The notes under the pieces are model-generated. The model did not search any database. It worked only from the letters and a program-made list of their open reading frames with translations, and had not been told where the DNA came from. Of a stretch of DNA of 23,898 nucleotides, positions 3,544-11,800 are shown piece after piece. A program made the translations under genes and the position numbers. Source of the stretch: a virus. The stretch spans positions 1 to 23,898 of the IMG/VR virus record IMGVR_UViG_3300008450_000447, one strand, 5' to 3'. How positions within the stretch are numbered: the first letter of the stretch is position 1; each line of letters begins with the position of its first letter.

Positions 3544-5142
3544 ATGGCCCTCATTGTTTCAGCAGCGAGCGGAAATTTTAACGCAGGAGCGACATGGGTC
3601 GGCGGCGTTGTGCCTACGGTCGGTGACGAAGCGCGGGCTTCGGATACTCACACTATCACAATCACCGCAAATGCCACTTGCGATGAAGTCTCGAATGCAG
3701 GCACAGGCATTTTCACGCTCAACAGCGGCGTGACGCTGACTGCGAATGTCACAAGCAAATCCACCACTATCACGCGCAATTGCCTGCAATTCACCGCAGC
3801 ATCGCCAGCGACTGCAACGATTGTCGGAAACTGCACGGGGGGAACGGTAAGCACCGCAGTCGCCGTTGCAAATACATCCACAGGCTCGCTCACCATCACC
3901 GGAAACTGCATAGGTGGCAGTGGAGGCTCTGCCCACGGAGCAAACAACAACTCCACCGGAACGCTAACCATCACCGGAAACTGCACTGGCGGGAGTGGAG
4001 CCTCTACCTTCGGCGCAAACAACGCCTCCTCCGGAACAATGACCATCACCGGAAACGCGACTGGCGGGAGTTCAAGCAATACCAACGGAGCAAACAACAA
4101 CTCCACCGGAACGCTGACCATCACCGGAAACTGCACGGGGGGGAGCGGCGCTGCTGCCCACGGAGCAAGCAACGCCTCCACCGGAACGCTGACCATCACC
4201 GGAAACTGCACAGGCGGGAGTGGGGGCGGTGCCTTCGGCGCAAACAACAACTCCACCGGAACAATGACCGTCGTCGGCACAATCAACGCCAGCGAATTTA
4301 ATTATGGAGTCGGCGGCCCAAACCGAGGCCAAGTCACGCTTCTCACAGGGCCATTCATCGCCTCAACGACATTCGGCGTGAATCCGATTGGTTGCCTTTC
4401 TTGGCGGTGGGCCGCATCACTCAACAACCAGACATACATCACGGTCCCGACGAACAACCTCCTCGCAACGCGCAATTTGGTCACGCCTGACAACGCGACC
4501 AATTTCCCAGCCGCCAGCAATGTCCGCAGCGCAATCACCTATGGGATCGGCGGGGCATTAACTGGCACTTGCGCCGTCCCGCCTGCTGGGTCTGTCGCCT
4601 TCGGTGTGCCGGTCGATAATACAACTGGCACGGCCACGCTTTCCGCCGCGCAGATTTGGGATTATGCGCTTTCGGCTATCACATCAAGCAACACAATCGG
4701 CACGCTACTGAAAACCAACATCGACGCCACAATCTCAAGCCGCTCTACCGCTACGACCGCAGGAATCGCTGATGCCGTGTGGGATGAAGTTATGAGCGAC
4801 CACACGATCAATGGAACCTATGGCGATCGAATCGTTCGCTCGCTAAATAGCAACAACACCCTTCAACTCACAGGCTCGCACCATGCTGCCGCAGATGTTC
4901 ACGAATTCCAGCCCGATGTCATTACAAACGATGCCATCGCTGCCAGCGCCGTCACAGAAATCGCGACAGGCGTGCGCACTGAACTCGCCACAGAACTCAC
5001 CGCTATCACCGAGCTTCATCTCATCCACGGCCTAAAGAGCGGATCAACGCTCACCGTCACGCCAACGAGCCGCAGTGCCGGCGCCGTATCGCAGACGATC
5101 GGCGGCGATGGAACAACTTCCACCACAGTTTCCCGCGACTAA
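3544..5142 (+). CDS. Repeat-rich fibre-like virion protein (532 aa)
   Basis: Residues 1-60 contain GNFNAGATWVGGVVPTVGDE, a motif I associate with phage and secreted beta-solenoid proteins. Residues 91-240 are six tandem 25-residue repeats, each roughly LTITGNCTGGSG followed by a Ser/Thr/Asn-rich linker (GANNNSTGT); a seventh partial copy follows. The regular strand-turn pattern suggests a beta-helix or solenoid stalk. The middle has AAQIWDYALSAI and ADAVWDEVMSDHTINGTYG, motifs common in phage fibre and structural proteins, and the C-terminus ends with TSRSAGAVSQTIGGDGTTST. There are no transmembrane segments. It lies inside the head module, between portal and protease, which favours a head-attached fibre over a tail fibre. 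SD-like AAAGGA lies 11 bases before the start. Function as a fibre is inferred. Confidence 0.8.
   Translation: MALIVSAASGNFNAGATWVGGVVPTVGDEARASDTHTITITANATCDEVSNAGTGIFTLNSGVTLTANVTSKSTTITRNCLQFTAASPATATIVGNCTGGTVSTAVAVANTSTGSLTITGNCIGGSGGSAHGANNNSTGTLTITGNCTGGSGASTFGANNASSGTMTITGNATGGSSSNTNGANNNSTGTLTITGNCTGGSGAAAHGASNASTGTLTITGNCTGGSGGGAFGANNNSTGTMTVVGTINASEFNYGVGGPNRGQVTLLTGPFIASTTFGVNPIGCLSWRWAASLNNQTYITVPTNNLLATRNLVTPDNATNFPAASNVRSAITYGIGGALTGTCAVPPAGSVAFGVPVDNTTGTATLSAAQIWDYALSAITSSNTIGTLLKTNIDATISSRSTATTAGIADAVWDEVMSDHTINGTYGDRIVRSLNSNNTLQLTGSHHAAADVHEFQPDVITNDAIAASAVTEIATGVRTELATELTAITELHLIHGLKSGSTLTVTPTSRSAGAVSQTIGGDGTTSTTVSRD
3814..4263 (+). repeat. Six tandem 75-bp coding repeats
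   Basis: The units run 3814-3888 (divergent), 3889-3963, 3964-4038, 4039-4113, 4114-4188 and 4189-4263. Each encodes 25 residues. Units 2-6 share long near-identical DNA such as CTGACCATCACCGGAAACTG, with most differences concentrated in the middle of each unit. A Cys occurs at position 7 of every unit except unit 4, which has Ala. The nucleotide-level similarity points to recent tandem duplication and possible copy-number variation. Confidence 0.9.
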
Positions 5143-6503: not shown

Positions 6504-6521
6504 TCACCCACTTATATGGCA
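6501..6521 (+). promoter_or_regulatory. Duplicated leader before decoration gene
   Basis: From the protease stop to the third codon of the next gene, the sequence TAATCACCCA followed by five bases and ATGGCA matches the leader at 6867-6887 with only two differences in 21 bases. There is no Shine-Dalgarno in either. Both precede abundant virion proteins, so a shared translation signal or a duplicated gene start is possible. Confidence 0.4.
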
Positions 6522-6869
6522 ACACAAATCGACAATAATTTTCGCAGCTTCTCGTTCGCTTCGGCGATCAGCGCGAACACGCTCGTCTATGTTTCCGGCA
6601 ATAACGCGGCAGCCGCCGTTGTGACTGCCTCTGAAGCAATCGGCGTTGTTCAGGACGACACTGCCGCCGCTGATGTCGGCGACGTGAAACTTTTCCACCC
6701 AACCCAATTCGGCATTGTTTCTCCCGGTCCTGTGACTGCGGGCAACAACATCTTCGCCACCACTGGCGGCGTGATTGTCGGAACGCTTGTTACTTCGGGA
6801 GTCACGCTCGGCGTGGCGCTCCAAAGCGGCGCCACCGGCGAGGTCATCGAATACGTTGTGAAACTCTAA
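6516..6869 (+). CDS. Head decoration protein candidate (DUF2190-like)
   Basis: The protein has 117 residues, rich in Ala, Val, Gly and Thr, with strand blocks such as ANTLVYVSGNNAAAAVV, EAIGVVQDDTAAADVGDVKL and VTLGVALQSGATGEVIEYV. This layout (an initial value, loss with time, a Gly-rich reset and a final EVIEYV strand) resembles DUF2190-type proteins found just before major capsid genes, several of which act as capsid decoration or stabilising proteins. Its position, 12 bases before the major capsid gene, supports that. It is expected to bind the outer face of the expanded head. Confidence 0.75.
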   Translation: MATQIDNNFRSFSFASAISANTLVYVSGNNAAAAVVTASEAIGVVQDDTAAADVGDVKLFHPTQFGIVSPGPVTAGNNIFATTGGVIVGTLVTSGVTLGVALQSGATGEVIEYVVKL

Positions 6870-6887
6870 TCACCCAATCATATGGCA
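6867..6887 (+). promoter_or_regulatory. Duplicated leader before major capsid gene
   Basis: This is the second copy of the leader described at 6501-6521: TAATCACCCA begins with the stop codon of the decoration gene and ends in the start ATGGCA of the capsid gene. The invariant first ten bases lie where a ribosome-binding site would normally be, but carry no purine-rich SD core. Confidence 0.4.
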
Positions 6888-7841
6888 CTCTCTACCACCA
6901 CAATTCGCGGCGACATCGCCCAGGCCGTCTTCGAGGGCCGCAGCAATCGCCAAAATCTTTTCATCGGAACCGAAGTCATGCCTATCTATGTGGCTGACGT
7001 TCGCAGCGGTGAATATCTCAAAATCAATCTCGGCGAGTCCGAGGCGCTTAATGACGACGCGACGAAAATCGCTGCCGGAGCCGCCTATCCTCGCATGAGC
7101 CGCAAATTTGTCTCCGACACTTTTGCCACCACCGAGTATGGTCTTGAGGAAATTCTTCCTGACGCTACTCAGCGTGATCTCGCCCGCTTCCTCGATGTCG
7201 AGGTTGCTGTTGCTGACATGCTGCTCAACCAGATTCAAATCGGACACGAAGCCCGCGTGGCTACTGCCGCCTTTGCCGCGAATGGCTTGACTGCCATCTC
7301 TGGCACTGGCGCTGGTGCTGCTTACAGCGAGTCCAACTTGACGAGCTTCGATCTCCCCGCTGACGTTGCCGCTGGCAAGCTTGAGCTTGCCAAATACGGT
7401 GTTCTCCCTAACACGCTCATCATGTCGGCTGTTCTTTTCGAGCGCGTTCGTCGCTCGACCAAGGTTCAGAACCAGATGTTTGGCGTTGTGGCCACCGATA
7501 GCACCCGCTTGCTCTCTGAGCAGGAAGTTGCTCAAGCGGTCGGCGTTGATCGCCTCCTTGTCGGTCGCGCTCCCAAGAACACGGCTGCCAAAGGCAAGAC
7601 CTATTCTGGCGGATTCGTGTGGGGCAATTCCTACATGGCACTCGCTCATGTCACTGGCGGCGAATTTGCCGCTGGCGGATTCGGTCGCACTATCCTCTGG
7701 GGTGCTGATAGCCCGGTTCCCTTCGTCACCGAGACCTATCGTGACGAAGCCCGCCGCTCGAATGTTCTTCGCGTGCGTCAACACGCCGCCGAGAAGGTCA
7801 TCGACGGATCGAGCATCATCCGCATCACGACTGGCGTTTAA
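6882..7841 (+). CDS. Major capsid protein (HK97 fold, lambda gpE-like)
   Basis: At 319 residues the length matches lambda-type major capsid proteins. Recognisable parts are an N-terminal arm, a VSDTFATTEYGLEEILPDAT block resembling the spine region, the helix ARFLDVEVAVADMLLNQIQI, the segment GVLPNTLIMSAVLFERVRRS, and a C-terminal part with GRTILWGADSPVPF and VTETYRDEARRSNVLRVRQH. Hundreds of copies would form the icosahedral shell. It follows protease and decoration genes and is directly followed by a strong terminator, typical of a very highly expressed gene. The start has no Shine-Dalgarno but uses the duplicated leader. Confidence 0.9.
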   Translation: MALSTTTIRGDIAQAVFEGRSNRQNLFIGTEVMPIYVADVRSGEYLKINLGESEALNDDATKIAAGAAYPRMSRKFVSDTFATTEYGLEEILPDATQRDLARFLDVEVAVADMLLNQIQIGHEARVATAAFAANGLTAISGTGAGAAYSESNLTSFDLPADVAAGKLELAKYGVLPNTLIMSAVLFERVRRSTKVQNQMFGVVATDSTRLLSEQEVAQAVGVDRLLVGRAPKNTAAKGKTYSGGFVWGNSYMALAHVTGGEFAAGGFGRTILWGADSPVPFVTETYRDEARRSNVLRVRQHAAEKVIDGSSIIRITTGV

Positions 7842-7870
7842 GTTAGTTGGAAGGCATAGGTGTTTTGCGG

Positions 7871-7902
7871 AAAAGCCGGAGAGGAAACTCTCCGGCTTTT
7901 TT
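7871..7902 (+). terminator. Strong intrinsic terminator after major capsid gene
   Basis: A perfect 13-bp stem, AAAAGCCGGAGAG (7871-7883) with its complement at 7888-7900, encloses a GAAA tetraloop (7884-7887); the stem's own T-run extends into six T (7897-7902). It begins 30 bases after the capsid stop. It should end or strongly reduce transcription of the head operon. Confidence 0.93.
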
Positions 7903-7907
7903 ATGTC

Positions 7908-7936
7908 TTGAAACGATTCGATTGATCTGATAAAAC
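7908..7936 (+). promoter_or_regulatory. Candidate sigma70-like promoter for the glycan cassette
   Basis: TTGAAA (7908-7913, 5 of 6 to consensus) is separated by exactly 17 bases from TAAAAC (7931-7936, 4 of 6). It lies between the capsid terminator and the first glycosyltransferase start at 7950, which would leave a very short leader of about seven bases. No Shine-Dalgarno is seen, consistent with near-leaderless translation. Host promoter rules are unknown. Confidence 0.4.
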
Positions 7937-7949
7937 TTTGAAAAATATT

Positions 7950-9638
7950 ATGTCAAAACCACGATTGGTCGCCGCGCTCATTGCCGGCAATGAAGAGGAA
8001 CGCATCGAGCGATGCGTCACATCGCTTAAAAAAATCGCCGATGATATTGTCATCGTTCGAGCCATTGGGGCGAAGCCGCCTGATGCCACGCTTGATATTG
8101 CAAAGAAGCTCGGATGCCATGTCGATATTTACAATAATGCGCCGCTTTGCGCTGAATGGCATCACGTCGATAATTTCGCATCGGCGCGCAATAAATCCTT
8201 TGAAATTGCTTACGATCTTTGCGGCGCGGATGGTTGGGTAATGTGGGCCGATTGCGATGATGTTTTGCAGGATCACATGGTAGAACCTCACTTGAAAATG
8301 CTTCAAGAAGTCGGCAAGGAAATCGATTGGGTCTTGACCGATTATGTCATTACCGAGCAAGGCAAGCGAGCACCACCCGAAAGATTCTTTCGCCATAAGG
8401 CTGCATGGTGGTGGCGGCCAATCCACGAAAATGCGCATCCACCGATTGGGCCCGACGGGCAACCGTTGCCGAGGAAAATTCTCATCCGCCGAGACCTTGA
8501 GATTGAGCATCGGCCTGCACTCGGTCGACGGCCAAGCAATGAGCGAAACATTCGCATCTTGGATTTCAATGATCGGATGTCGGCGCATTTCAAATTTTAC
8601 TTGCATTACGAGCGCATGATAATCGGCGACATCGAGGGAGCCATGCGTTACGGCGCTGAATCGCTTGCCCTGCGGGATCTCGATGCAGTGCATCGCTATG
8701 AGACGTTGATGAACCTTTCAAACCTCTCGAATGGCGAATCTGCGCTAAAGCTTGCAAGACGCGCAAAGGCACTTGATCTTAATCGCCGCGAAGCCTACGC
8801 AATCGAGGCATCGATTCTTCTCGATATGGGCAACCCTGTCGCAGCGCTCGATGTTGTTGATGCGATGGAGAAGATCCCTGCGCCCACATTTCCGCAATGG
8901 ACGCATCGCCGGGAATGGTATGGTTGGAAAGCTCGCCGCCTTCGGGCTTGGTGCCTGCGAGAACTTGGTCGAGCCAAGGAGGCTTTTGATATTGAAATGG
9001 AAATCCTTGATTCGGCCAAAGGCCCGCGGATTTCCTTGCTTCATGCTACGCGGGATCGTGCGATTGCGGCGATCAGCAATATGACGCTTTGGTTTCAGCG
9101 TGCCAATCGCCCGGAGCGCGTGGAACATATATTCTCCGTCGATGCCGACGATGAAACTGCGGCAATGCTCAATCGCTTTGGCGGTGTTACGCAGGATGGC
9201 AACGGCCACTCAGTCGGCGCATGGAACCTCGCTGCCAATCATTCGACAGGAGATATTCTTGTTCAAATGAGCGATGACTTCGAGCCGCCACCGGGCTGGG
9301 ATGATGCCATCGAGTCGCGTCTTGATATTGATAAGGCGCAAGTTTTGCGAACAAGCGACGGCTACCGAACTGACGAGCTTTTACCTATGGCAATCTGCAC
9401 GCGCAAATTTTATGAACAATATGGATTCCTTGATTCGCGATTCAAAAATCAATACTCGGATGCCGAGTTCACCGTTCGTGCAAGTAAGGCGGGGGCGATT
9501 GTGGGTTCCCGTGATTTGTCTATCGTTCACCATCATCCGCTCTTTGAAAATCGTCCGCTTGATGCAACCTACCGTCGTGTGGCAGATCCTCAAGAACAAG
9601 CTCGCGCAAAAAAACTCTTTGAAGAAATAACAAAATGA
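7950..9638 (+). CDS. Two-domain family 2 glycosyltransferase with TPR-like linker
   Basis: Residues 1-190 form a GT2-like (GT-A fold) domain: RLVAALIAGNEEERIERCV at the nucleotide-sugar-binding start, then an Asp-rich motif WADCDD (99-104) that should bind metal and sugar nucleotide. Residues about 215-355 are helical repeats resembling TPRs. Residues 360-520 are a second GT-A-like domain: ISLLHATRDR, GAWNLAANHSTGDILVQM and SDDFEPPPGW (441-450), closely similar to the N-terminus of the next gene. No membrane segments are present, so it should act in the cytoplasm, adding sugars to a protein or glycan. The ATG at 7950 is preferred over an in-frame TTG four codons earlier, which would fall near the promoter's transcript start. 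Acceptor unknown; a virion protein or host surface glycan are the options. Confidence 0.8.
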   Translation: MSKPRLVAALIAGNEEERIERCVTSLKKIADDIVIVRAIGAKPPDATLDIAKKLGCHVDIYNNAPLCAEWHHVDNFASARNKSFEIAYDLCGADGWVMWADCDDVLQDHMVEPHLKMLQEVGKEIDWVLTDYVITEQGKRAPPERFFRHKAAWWWRPIHENAHPPIGPDGQPLPRKILIRRDLEIEHRPALGRRPSNERNIRILDFNDRMSAHFKFYLHYERMIIGDIEGAMRYGAESLALRDLDAVHRYETLMNLSNLSNGESALKLARRAKALDLNRREAYAIEASILLDMGNPVAALDVVDAMEKIPAPTFPQWTHRREWYGWKARRLRAWCLRELGRAKEAFDIEMEILDSAKGPRISLLHATRDRAIAAISNMTLWFQRANRPERVEHIFSVDADDETAAMLNRFGGVTQDGNGHSVGAWNLAANHSTGDILVQMSDDFEPPPGWDDAIESRLDIDKAQVLRTSDGYRTDELLPMAICTRKFYEQYGFLDSRFKNQYSDAEFTVRASKAGAIVGSRDLSIVHHHPLFENRPLDATYRRVADPQEQARAKKLFEEITK

Positions 9639-10801
9639 AAATCTCATTACTCCACGCAACCCGCAGCATGCCTGAACGCGCACTCCTCACGCGCAAAATT
9701 TGGATAGAACGAGCCGACAAGCCTGAAGACGTCGAACATATTTTTGGGATTCAGGCCGACGATTACGCAAGCCGAGAAGCATTTGACCTGGCTGGCGCGC
9801 AATGGGCCCTAGGCTATACGCCGCCTGAATGGGCATCAAGCAGCGTAGGGAATTGGAACGCTGCTGCTGAGATGGCTGATGGCGATATACTTGTTGTCAT
9901 TGCTGACGATCTCACGCCGCCACAAGGATGGGATACTCAGCTTCGCAAGCTCCCTGATCCCGCGCAACCATGGGCCTGCTACGTGCCTGACTCGCTGCGC
10001 CAAGACGGCCTTATGTGCCATCCAGTCCTTTCTCGCGGCCTTTACAATAAACGCGATTATGTTTTCAATCCGAAATTCTATGGCGTTTTTTGTGACAATG
10101 ATTTTACGGTTCGCACGCAATTAGAGGCATCGATCTGGGGCGTCAAGAATCTTAAGTGGCAGCACGATCATCCTAGCAATAACACACGCGAACAGGACGA
10201 CATTGTTCGCCACCAGAACAGCCAGCGGGCCTATGAATACGGAGGCCAGACATTTGCAAGAATGTGGCCGCTAGCGCATATCTTTAATCGTTCTCGATCA
10301 ATTTGCGGAGATATTAACGAGCACATGCTACGGCTCGCGCAACTTGCTAGAGAATGCGAACACATCACAGAATTTGGTGTTCGCACAGGGATGAGCACTT
10401 ACTCGTTCCTGCATGGATTATCTAACAAGCCAAGAGCAATTTTGCGAAGTCACGACCTGCATGACTTTTTCAATATCTTTGCCATCCGTCCGCAACTTGA
10501 AATCGATTGGACGTTTCGACAGGCTTCGACGCTTGATATTGACCCAATCGAGCCGACGGATTTGCTTTTCATCGATACCCTACACACTTACGCGCAGGTC
10601 AAAGGAGAACTCGAAAAGCACGGTCTGAGGGCGCGCAAATATATTGTTTTCCATGATACAGTCGCCTTCGGAAAGGTCGGCGAAGACAACGGCGAGGGCA
10701 TCAACAAGGCTATTTTTGAATGGATGGCGGCCAACCCTCAATGGAAGGTCGCCGAGCATTACGAGAATAACAATGGATTGACAATTCTCGCAAAACAATG
10801 A
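9635..10801 (+). CDS. Glycosyltransferase-methyltransferase fusion
   Basis: Residues 1-180 are a GT-A-like domain: MKISLLHATR, a VEHIF strand, GNWNAAAEMADGDILVVIAD with Asp-Asp at 91-92, and DLTPPQGWD. Residues about 220-388 resemble a Methyltransf_24-type class I SAM methyltransferase: motif I ITEFGVRTGMSTYSF (244-258), DLLFIDTLHTYAQVKGEL (309-326) and KYIVFHDT (335-342). Such a fusion could add a sugar and then O-methylate it or a neighbouring residue. The start overlaps the previous gene as ATGA, and the stop overlaps the next. Asn in place of the usual glycine-rich loop was not seen, so binding of SAM is plausible; catalysis is not shown. It could also act on carboxyl groups of sugars. 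Confidence 0.78.
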   Translation: MKISLLHATRSMPERALLTRKIWIERADKPEDVEHIFGIQADDYASREAFDLAGAQWALGYTPPEWASSSVGNWNAAAEMADGDILVVIADDLTPPQGWDTQLRKLPDPAQPWACYVPDSLRQDGLMCHPVLSRGLYNKRDYVFNPKFYGVFCDNDFTVRTQLEASIWGVKNLKWQHDHPSNNTREQDDIVRHQNSQRAYEYGGQTFARMWPLAHIFNRSRSICGDINEHMLRLAQLARECEHITEFGVRTGMSTYSFLHGLSNKPRAILRSHDLHDFFNIFAIRPQLEIDWTFRQASTLDIDPIEPTDLLFIDTLHTYAQVKGELEKHGLRARKYIVFHDTVAFGKVGEDNGEGINKAIFEWMAANPQWKVAEHYENNNGLTILAKQ

Positions 10802-11487
10802 GTGCAACACATTCAGTTTGGATCGGCCCGAAGCTCGGCCTCATGGAAAAACTCACATTGCAACTTTTGCTTAATGCCGGGCATTCGCCGACTCTTTGGA
10901 CAAAAGGCAAAGTTGAAGGAGTGCCGAATGGAGTTCAAGTTGAGACGCTGCCAAAAGGAACGCTTGAGCCGATCGGCTTTGCCGGCAATCCCCATGCCTA
11001 CATCCCAAATGGCGGCATCGGCAGCTTTGCACATTGGAGTGATTATTTTGCATTCGAGACCCTCTCAAAACATGGCGGGATTTGGGTGCAGATGGATTGC
11101 GCGATCACCGTCAAGCTTGAACTTGAACCCTATACATTTTCCCCCTGGCTCTCTAGCGTCTCGCCTGTCGTCATGGCACTCCCGAAAGGTGACGCCTTCT
11201 CCAAGGACACGGCGGCGCACCTTGCCGATATGCTCTCTGACGGCATGGCGGGACGCGATTGGCACGAGGCCATGGTCGCGATCCATGTCGGACTGCAACG
11301 CCATGGTATCGCTTACAAAACGCTGCCAAATTATTTTGACTGCGGTGGAGTTGCCGAGTCGCCTTACACGCACCCGATCAAGGCCGATGTCATTCATTGG
11401 TCGAATGCCACGCACAATCAATCAAAGGAAAAGCCGACAAAGGGCAGTGAATACGAACGGTTGTGCAAACTCGCAAAATTGATCTAA
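10798..11487 (+). CDS. GT32-like sugar transferase (DXD-type, variant motif)
   Basis: The central segment WSDYFAFETLSKHGGIWVQM followed by Asp100 matches the core of GT32/Gly_transf_sug proteins, where Ser-Asp, a hydrophobic helix and Gly-Gly-Ile-Trp precede the metal-binding DXD. Here the first Asp of DXD is replaced by Gln98 (Q-M-D). The N-terminus MSATHSVWIGPKLGLMEKLT fits the usual WxGxxl start of that fold. The C-terminal half carries NYFDCGGVAESPYTHP and a His-Trp pair (HWSNATHNQ), positions often used for metal or acceptor binding. The start overlaps the previous gene as ATGA; the next gene starts four bases after the stop. It is likely cytoplasmic and works with the two preceding enzymes. 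Activity may be altered by the variant motif. Confidence 0.72.
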   Translation: MSATHSVWIGPKLGLMEKLTLQLLLNAGHSPTLWTKGKVEGVPNGVQVETLPKGTLEPIGFAGNPHAYIPNGGIGSFAHWSDYFAFETLSKHGGIWVQMDCAITVKLELEPYTFSPWLSSVSPVVMALPKGDAFSKDTAAHLADMLSDGMAGRDWHEAMVAIHVGLQRHGIAYKTLPNYFDCGGVAESPYTHPIKADVIHWSNATHNQSKEKPTKGSEYERLCKLAKLI

Positions 11488-11491
11488 TGCT

Positions 11492-11800
11492 ATGCTGATT
11501 GCCGATTATTTTCGCGATGACCTTGATGCGATCATTTCTGATCTTCCGATCACGATTTCGCACAAGGGCCGCATATTCACGGCGGCAAGAACAGCATTTC
11601 GGCGTGAAAATGATCTCGGCGATGGCGGATTCATGCGAACGCTCGCAATGTCATTGACTGCGCCTTACAATGAAACAACGCAACTTGTCGAGCTTGGTGA
11701 TACGGTCACAATCGACGGTTCTAAATTTCGCGTGATCTCGGCAGAATTGTCGCAGGATGCTGTCAGCGTTGATTTCGTTCTAGAGGACATCAACAAATGA
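11492..11800 (+). CDS. Head-tail connector candidate (gpFII-like)
   Basis: This 102-residue protein begins with a helix (LIADYFRDDLDAIISDL) and is then strand rich, with ELGDTVTIDGSKFRVISAEL near residues 70-88. That Gly-Asp-Thr-Val-Thr-Ile-Asp-Gly phrase and length resemble lambda gpFII-type head-tail joining proteins, which bind under the portal-gpW neck. Gene order agrees: it precedes a tail-terminator candidate. It is separated from the capsid gene by the glycan cassette, whereas these genes are normally close. The start follows the previous stop by four bases without a Shine-Dalgarno; the stop overlaps the next gene as ATGA. Confidence 0.6.
   Translation: MLIADYFRDDLDAIISDLPITISHKGRIFTAARTAFRRENDLGDGGFMRTLAMSLTAPYNETTQLVELGDTVTIDGSKFRVISAELSQDAVSVDFVLEDINK

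Follow-up and report, generated by a model that had tools for sequence, protein, structure and literature searches.

A glycosyltransferase gene constant behind the capsid gene of a tailed-phage lineage, and its probable role in virion glycosylation

Glycosyltransferases (GTs) are encoded by phages in gtr serotype-conversion clusters. Corndog-group mycobacteriophages carry an O-methyltransferase and GTs between the portal and protease genes (PMC4351075; Firecracker map), and glycosylation of virion proteins is reported for Che8, Corndog and Myrna (PMC12363180). In bacteria, the Listeria GlcNAc transferase GmaR glycosylates flagellin, and binding of its acceptor through tetratricopeptide repeats (TPR) has been proposed (PMC9638930); the TPR domain of FlmG, the Caulobacter flagellin glycosyltransferase, binds flagellin (PMC7591256). 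The subject here is a set of three enzyme genes, GTa, GTb and GTc, which are flanked by the major capsid gene and a head-closure gene in a 23.9 kb virus record of IMG/VR (IMGVR_UViG_3300008450_000447; the whole record is referred to as the window). This interval is probably a virion-glycosylation locus within the head operon of a tailed-phage lineage. Its closest precedent is the glycan cassette among the head genes of Corndog and Firecracker (cluster O mycobacteriophage).

Conservation and layout of the capsid-connector interval

Relatives of the window were sought in IMG/VR with capsid proteins as the only queries. Of the distinct loci found, 117 extend 400 nt or more beyond the capsid gene, and in every one of them (117/117) GTa stands behind it, usually 80-115 nt downstream. 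Identity to the window across these loci is 71-92% for the capsid protein and 51-75% for GTa. Median ratios of nonsynonymous to synonymous substitution rates (dN/dS) are 0.052 (GTa), 0.068 (GTb), 0.080 (GTc) and 0.075 (capsid protein); purifying selection on GTa is strong and at least matches that on the capsid. GTa distances track capsid distances closely (r 0.90), and those of GTb and GTc do so less (r 0.56). Because GTa is conserved behind the capsid gene, with low dN/dS and distances that follow the capsid, it is a core gene of the lineage and not recent cargo, and the arrangement is not a chance insertion. An earlier note on the same DNA, which had described the enzymes as wedged between capsid and connector genes, was misleading in that word, since GTa belongs to the core gene order. 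The comparison of this interval among related phages, which the note had suggested as a check, was carried out here and found GTa constant and the distal genes exchangeable.

Few relatives were found elsewhere. None turned up among 84,980 species genomes searched with GTa and capsid profiles. Isolated phages (50,697 records) yielded no relative of GTb, one weak match to GTa and only three capsid relatives, at 22-27%; in two of these three, phiSHP3 and TJ1, small proteins and no annotated GT follow the capsid gene. In locus L256 (contig G011), whose capsid protein is 39% identical, no GTa match was found in the 38 kb contig, which ends about 340 nt past the capsid gene. Literature searches found no capsid-adjacent SunS-like cassette, which is no proof of absence. 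A single tRNA gene among ten loci gave no clue to the host.

The window holds the late genes of a tailed phage, namely a lambda-type portal, protease, putative decoration protein, major capsid protein, the three enzymes, head-closure, neck and tail genes. The genes from the decoration protein to the connector, and the terminator described below, are on the + strand. The constant upstream neighbour of the cassette is the major capsid protein of 319 aa (6882-7841; PHROG 1005 major head protein, 1.1e-31), preceded by a putative head decoration protein of 117 aa (6516-6869), for which both matches are weak (PHROG head decoration 0.02, Pfam cement 0.035). GTa (562 aa) occupies 7950-9638 with an ATG start and a TTG upstream at 7938, GTb 9635-10801 and GTc 10798-11487, with a 4 nt overlap at each junction. 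The connector gene, of the head-closure (Hc1) type, starts 4 nt past the end of GTc and forms the downstream border (11492-11800; PHROG 82 head closure 9e-4; Pfam Phage_attach 8e-4, below the Pfam cut-off); it holds the equivalent relative place in relatives. GC content of the enzyme block (0.48-0.55) is within the range of the flanking DNA, so that the block is not set apart by composition. The portal protein (774-2852) has a C-terminal extension, residues 516-614, which matches PHROG 2859 (1e-26, function unassigned) and is conserved in relatives.

Between the capsid gene and the cassette stands an intrinsic terminator (7869-7902; dG -25.2 kcal/mol, z -5.66), and no terminator-like site was found on the + strand between GTc and the connector gene. 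The earlier note thus read the borders correctly: three enzyme genes lie between capsid and connector genes with a strong terminator ahead of them and none after, and the view that the cassette is part of the late head operon rather than a self-contained moron is supported. Strong hairpins with T-runs occur in the capsid-GTa spacers of 87/87 non-redundant relatives. Because the hairpin is always present and its stem sequences differ, the terminator is maintained in the lineage, which suggests that transcription of the enzyme genes is weaker than that of the capsid gene. Co-expression of the enzymes with the neck and tail genes is plausible.

The promoter that the note had placed at 7908-7936 did not hold up. 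It matches the consensus at 9/12 positions, and best scores in homologous spacers were 6.06 versus 6.00 in shuffled ones; a sigma-70 promoter before GTa was rejected because homologous spacers score no higher than shuffles. A TTGACA hexamer is found 18-30 nt upstream of gene starts far above expectation, with 4/6 sites in the window (5633, 10778, 12288 and 18856; expected 0.09), before GTa in 95/106 relatives, and with a similar excess in five other contigs. The hexamer is too close to the start codon to be an ordinary -35 box, and many genes that have it upstream show no Shine-Dalgarno sequence. It is a putative start-associated signal. Single genes are inserted in some relatives into the spacer between the capsid terminator and GTa, and several of these are DNA-modification genes (C5-methylase, DNA methyltransferase, Mom-like), as at L029:9106-10260, L054:6894-7448, L075:9038-9664, L084:7576-8208 and L031:4630-5178.

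Enzyme domains and the exchangeable distal module

GTa has three parts: GT2 (about residues 1-190), TPR-like helices (195-355) and, at the C-terminus, another GT-A domain (360-562). The N-terminal domain passes the gathering cut-off of Pfam Glycos_transf_2 (PF00535; residues 17-163, 2.2e-15, 57.4 bits versus 23.3), and the C-terminal part is 35% identical to the N-terminus of GTb, as expected from the description of GTa as a two-domain GT2 protein in the earlier note. In the AlphaFold2 model of GTa (pLDDT 81), residues 1-291 align with SunS, a peptide S-glycosyltransferase (VIA Z 23.1, rmsd 2.7); ThuS is also similar (Z 21.0), the two matches together falling within residues 1-297, and Foldseek matched the model to SunS at 4e-16. 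The middle part resembles TPR proteins in structure and matches designed TPR proteins (E 0.003), and the second GT-A domain resembles the fucosyltransferase WrtF (Z 15) and ppGalNAc-T2. A hidden Markov model (HMM) built from 19 GTa relatives gave GmaR as its best profile match in the PDB (5e-8), along with SunS (5e-5). DxD-type residues are invariant in both GT domains. GTa misses the equivalog cut-off of the SunS family TIGR04195 (21.4 bits versus 350). WD-40 matches obtained with phmmer were rejected as a repeat artefact.

GTb matches a PHROG glycosyltransferase (4e-11) and has a match to Methyltransf_24 (PF13578; 5.9e-5, 24.3 bits) just under the gathering cut-off of 26.3. An ADD motif and the S-adenosylmethionine (SAM) motif EFGVRxGMST are invariant in its relatives. 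GTb is a GT2-like domain fused to a SAM methyltransferase domain, in agreement with the GT-methyltransferase fusion of the earlier note. For GTc, sequence matches to GT32 and Caps_synth are insignificant (Gly_transf_sug PF04488, 13.5 bits versus a cut-off of 23), and a profile search against PDB sequences found nothing; fold comparison was used instead. The AlphaFold2 model (pLDDT 81) was matched by Foldseek to SetA (2e-7), YeGT and glycogenin, and D100 of a DxD-like motif is invariant. The model supports a GT-A fold of the glycogenin/SetA/YeGT group, at the level of the wider GT8/GT32/GT44 group only. Because of this fold, the term "GT32-like" used in the note is fair as a statement on fold; by sequence it fails. 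None of the three enzymes has a membrane segment (top 19-residue Kyte-Doolittle means of 1.24, 0.91 and 0.97 for GTa, GTb and GTc), as the note had also claimed.

The genes downstream of GTa vary. Among 84 distinct GTa-to-Hc1 intervals, 49 hold a DUF5672 gene with a conserved unassigned protein, 30 hold GTb and GTc, and 5 hold other combinations of a methyltransferase and/or another GT, including FkbM-type or other SAM methyltransferases and an extra GT2; not one (0/84) is empty. In locus L200 a clade-2 capsid (72%) is combined with GTb and GTc, which shows that modules are exchanged between lineages, with GTa remaining linked to the capsid. For the usual partner of DUF5672, no sequence match was obtained in Pfam, PHROG or the PDB; its assignment as a heptosyltransferase, suggested by N-terminal likeness by eye only, was not adopted. 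A subgroup carries an orphan protein of 85-88 aa between GTa and GTb (L045:10692-10949 and the relatives L058, L060, L063, L069 and L094), which has no PHROG match.

Probable function, acceptor and alternative explanations

Glycosylation of one of the phage's own virion proteins, as the earlier note had proposed, is the best reading of the locus, and it is strengthened by the constant capsid linkage, the similarity of GTa to protein and peptide GTs and the Corndog/Firecracker precedent. We infer the rest of the scheme, from acceptor, sugars and order of transfer to methyl target, expression level and benefit, as follows. Capsid transcripts would mostly end at the terminator, and read-through would yield fewer enzyme molecules. 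GTa, a soluble GT2-TPR-GT2 enzyme of the SunS/GmaR type, would bind its acceptor protein via the TPR-like helices, in the manner of FlmG with flagellin and of the proposal for GmaR, and, as the proposed initiating enzyme, add the first sugar and perhaps a second to a universal virion protein of the phage. Nucleotide sugars of the host would serve as donors; in relative G004, neither a nucleotide-sugar nor an integrase family turned up among the non-structural genes. GTb would then add a sugar and O-methylate one, and GTc would add another, so that the glycan is extended and capped. The particle surface could thereby be masked or altered. Since the distal set is exchangeable, related phages would share the initiator yet carry different outer glycans.

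Several points weigh against this explanation. Adjacency within a phage operon is suggestive only. All 117 loci belong to one lineage; they are mutually related and do not count as independent events. Resemblance to SunS in fold does not define the acceptor, and the second GTa domain is also like WrtF, for which the acceptors solved are oligosaccharides. No obvious Ser/Thr-rich tail is present in the capsid protein or in the decoration protein.

The acceptor is expected to be universal because GTa is always present. Proteins shared by the window and all seven of the long contigs examined include portal, protease, decoration, capsid, Hc1, neck and tail tube proteins and one tail protein. We infer that the acceptor is one of the universal virion proteins, most likely the adjacent capsid protein or the decoration protein, which are favoured by their proximity. 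The earlier note had instead pointed to Ser/Thr/Asn-rich fibre and repeat proteins. In an alternative of this type, the acceptor would be a repeat protein or a fibre such as a tail fibre, and the glycan would serve host binding. A candidate of this kind lies between portal and protease, where window positions 3544-5142 encode a 532-aa protein, possibly a head fibre, of variable length with repeats like STGTLTITGNCTGGSG; 37% of its residues are Ser, Thr or Asn. Collagen-like fibres, a second candidate, are encoded near the cassette in many relatives. However, the GTa-bearing loci L200, L168, L228-L232 and L243, with a portal-protease junction of 34-38 nt, lack the repeat protein along with the entire block between portal and protease. 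Nor was it found in G012-G014 (35-36 kb contigs); an empty search alone is weak, yet the decoration protein was found in all three. As relatives without the repeat protein keep GTa, it is an unlikely acceptor. The collagen-like fibre between Hc1 and the next neck gene is facultative, being absent from the window and from 26/28 GTb-GTc relatives. A fibre or repeat protein as acceptor is consequently not supported and appears quite unlikely. Genes for such collagen-like (GPPGP) fibres lie between head-closure and neck genes at L018:10301-11011, L030:12865-14025 and L089:8113-9600; inserts at this place are usual with the DUF5672 module and occur in only 2/28 loci with GTb-GTc.

The remaining alternatives place the target outside the virion proteins, and they too are less likely than virion-protein glycosylation. 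The enzymes might modify the host surface during infection, that is lipopolysaccharide or another envelope glycan, so as to exclude superinfecting phages or to stop progeny from adsorbing again to debris. Pelagimyophage GTs have been interpreted so (PMC7029224), the WrtF match of the second GTa domain is to a fucosyltransferase, and the outer genes vary among relatives as envelope glycans do. Against such a role stand the lack of membrane segments in all three enzymes, the late-operon position beside the capsid gene in every locus, and the first GTa domain, which is nearest to peptide and protein GTs; as G004 has no integrase family, lysogenic conversion is improbable there. Modification of the host surface is therefore judged unlikely. 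Glycosylation (hypermodification) of the phage's own DNA bases against restriction is very unlikely. Phage GTs that glycosylate modified DNA bases are known, according to a summary of Pyle et al. 2024 in PMC12619734, and the single DNA-modification genes inserted between capsid gene and GTa in some relatives would agree with it. The non-structural genes of G004 (25 of 46 PHROG families listed), however, show neither a base hydroxymethylase nor any other hypermodification family in their Pfam matches; there is just a DNA methylase of the ordinary type, and a gene resembling nucleoside deoxyribosyltransferases. The best fold matches of the enzymes to peptide and protein enzymes, and their late-gene placement, likewise argue against a DNA target.

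Comparison with known systems

Virion glycosylation has been demonstrated, in the literature searched, for a few cultured mycobacteriophages. If the explanation given here is true, phage particles can be obligately glycosylated in a group quite unlike the mycobacteriophages, and the gene set, with one initiator and several alternative extenders, makes the benefit of a sugar coat to the phage testable.

The window cassette differs from gtr clusters, which are recognized by a membrane-spanning GT and a flippase, in having no membrane-spanning protein (all 19-residue hydrophobic means of GTa, GTb and GTc stay at or below 1.3), in not lying beside an integrase and in its place in the head operon. 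SunS and ThuS share with GTa a GT-A domain directly followed by TPR-like helices. Unlike them, GTa is only about 20% identical, carries a second GT domain, has a virion protein as its predicted acceptor and lacks an adjoining bacteriocin peptide. GmaR and FlmG are likewise soluble GTs with TPR, which act in the cytoplasm on an assembled filament protein (PMC9638930; PMC7591256). FlmG, however, is a GT-B enzyme and GmaR carries an antirepressor domain, and as described in these papers neither is phage-encoded or capsid-linked.

Like the window cassette with its proposed O-methyltransferase, the Corndog/Firecracker cassette combines an O-methyltransferase with several GTs among the head genes of a tailed phage. 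GTs conserved with structural genes, of the kind found in Corndog, Che8 and Myrna, are seen here too, as GTa accompanies the capsid gene throughout and has the lowest dN/dS given above. The Corndog-group enzymes are described as made in infected cells and not found in the twice-banded virion (PMC4351075; PMC12363180). That cassette lies between portal and protease, whereas the window cassette follows the capsid gene, and the Corndog group has no GT2-TPR-GT2 fusion and infects actinobacterial hosts. Comparison of GTa, GTb and GTc with Firecracker gp33-gp36 by BLASTP and HMM gave no clear similarity, the best being GTb with gp36 (E 0.001, 6.5 bits, in a seven-protein search). Given the lack of clear sequence similarity and the other position in the head block, such an arrangement seems to have arisen on more than one occasion. 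Whether the lineage as a whole carries an obligatory capsid-linked protein GT, in which a constant GT2-TPR-GT2 initiator and interchangeable glycan modules produce cassette-switching sugar coats assembled separately from the mycobacteriophage system, is evenly balanced on the present comparison.

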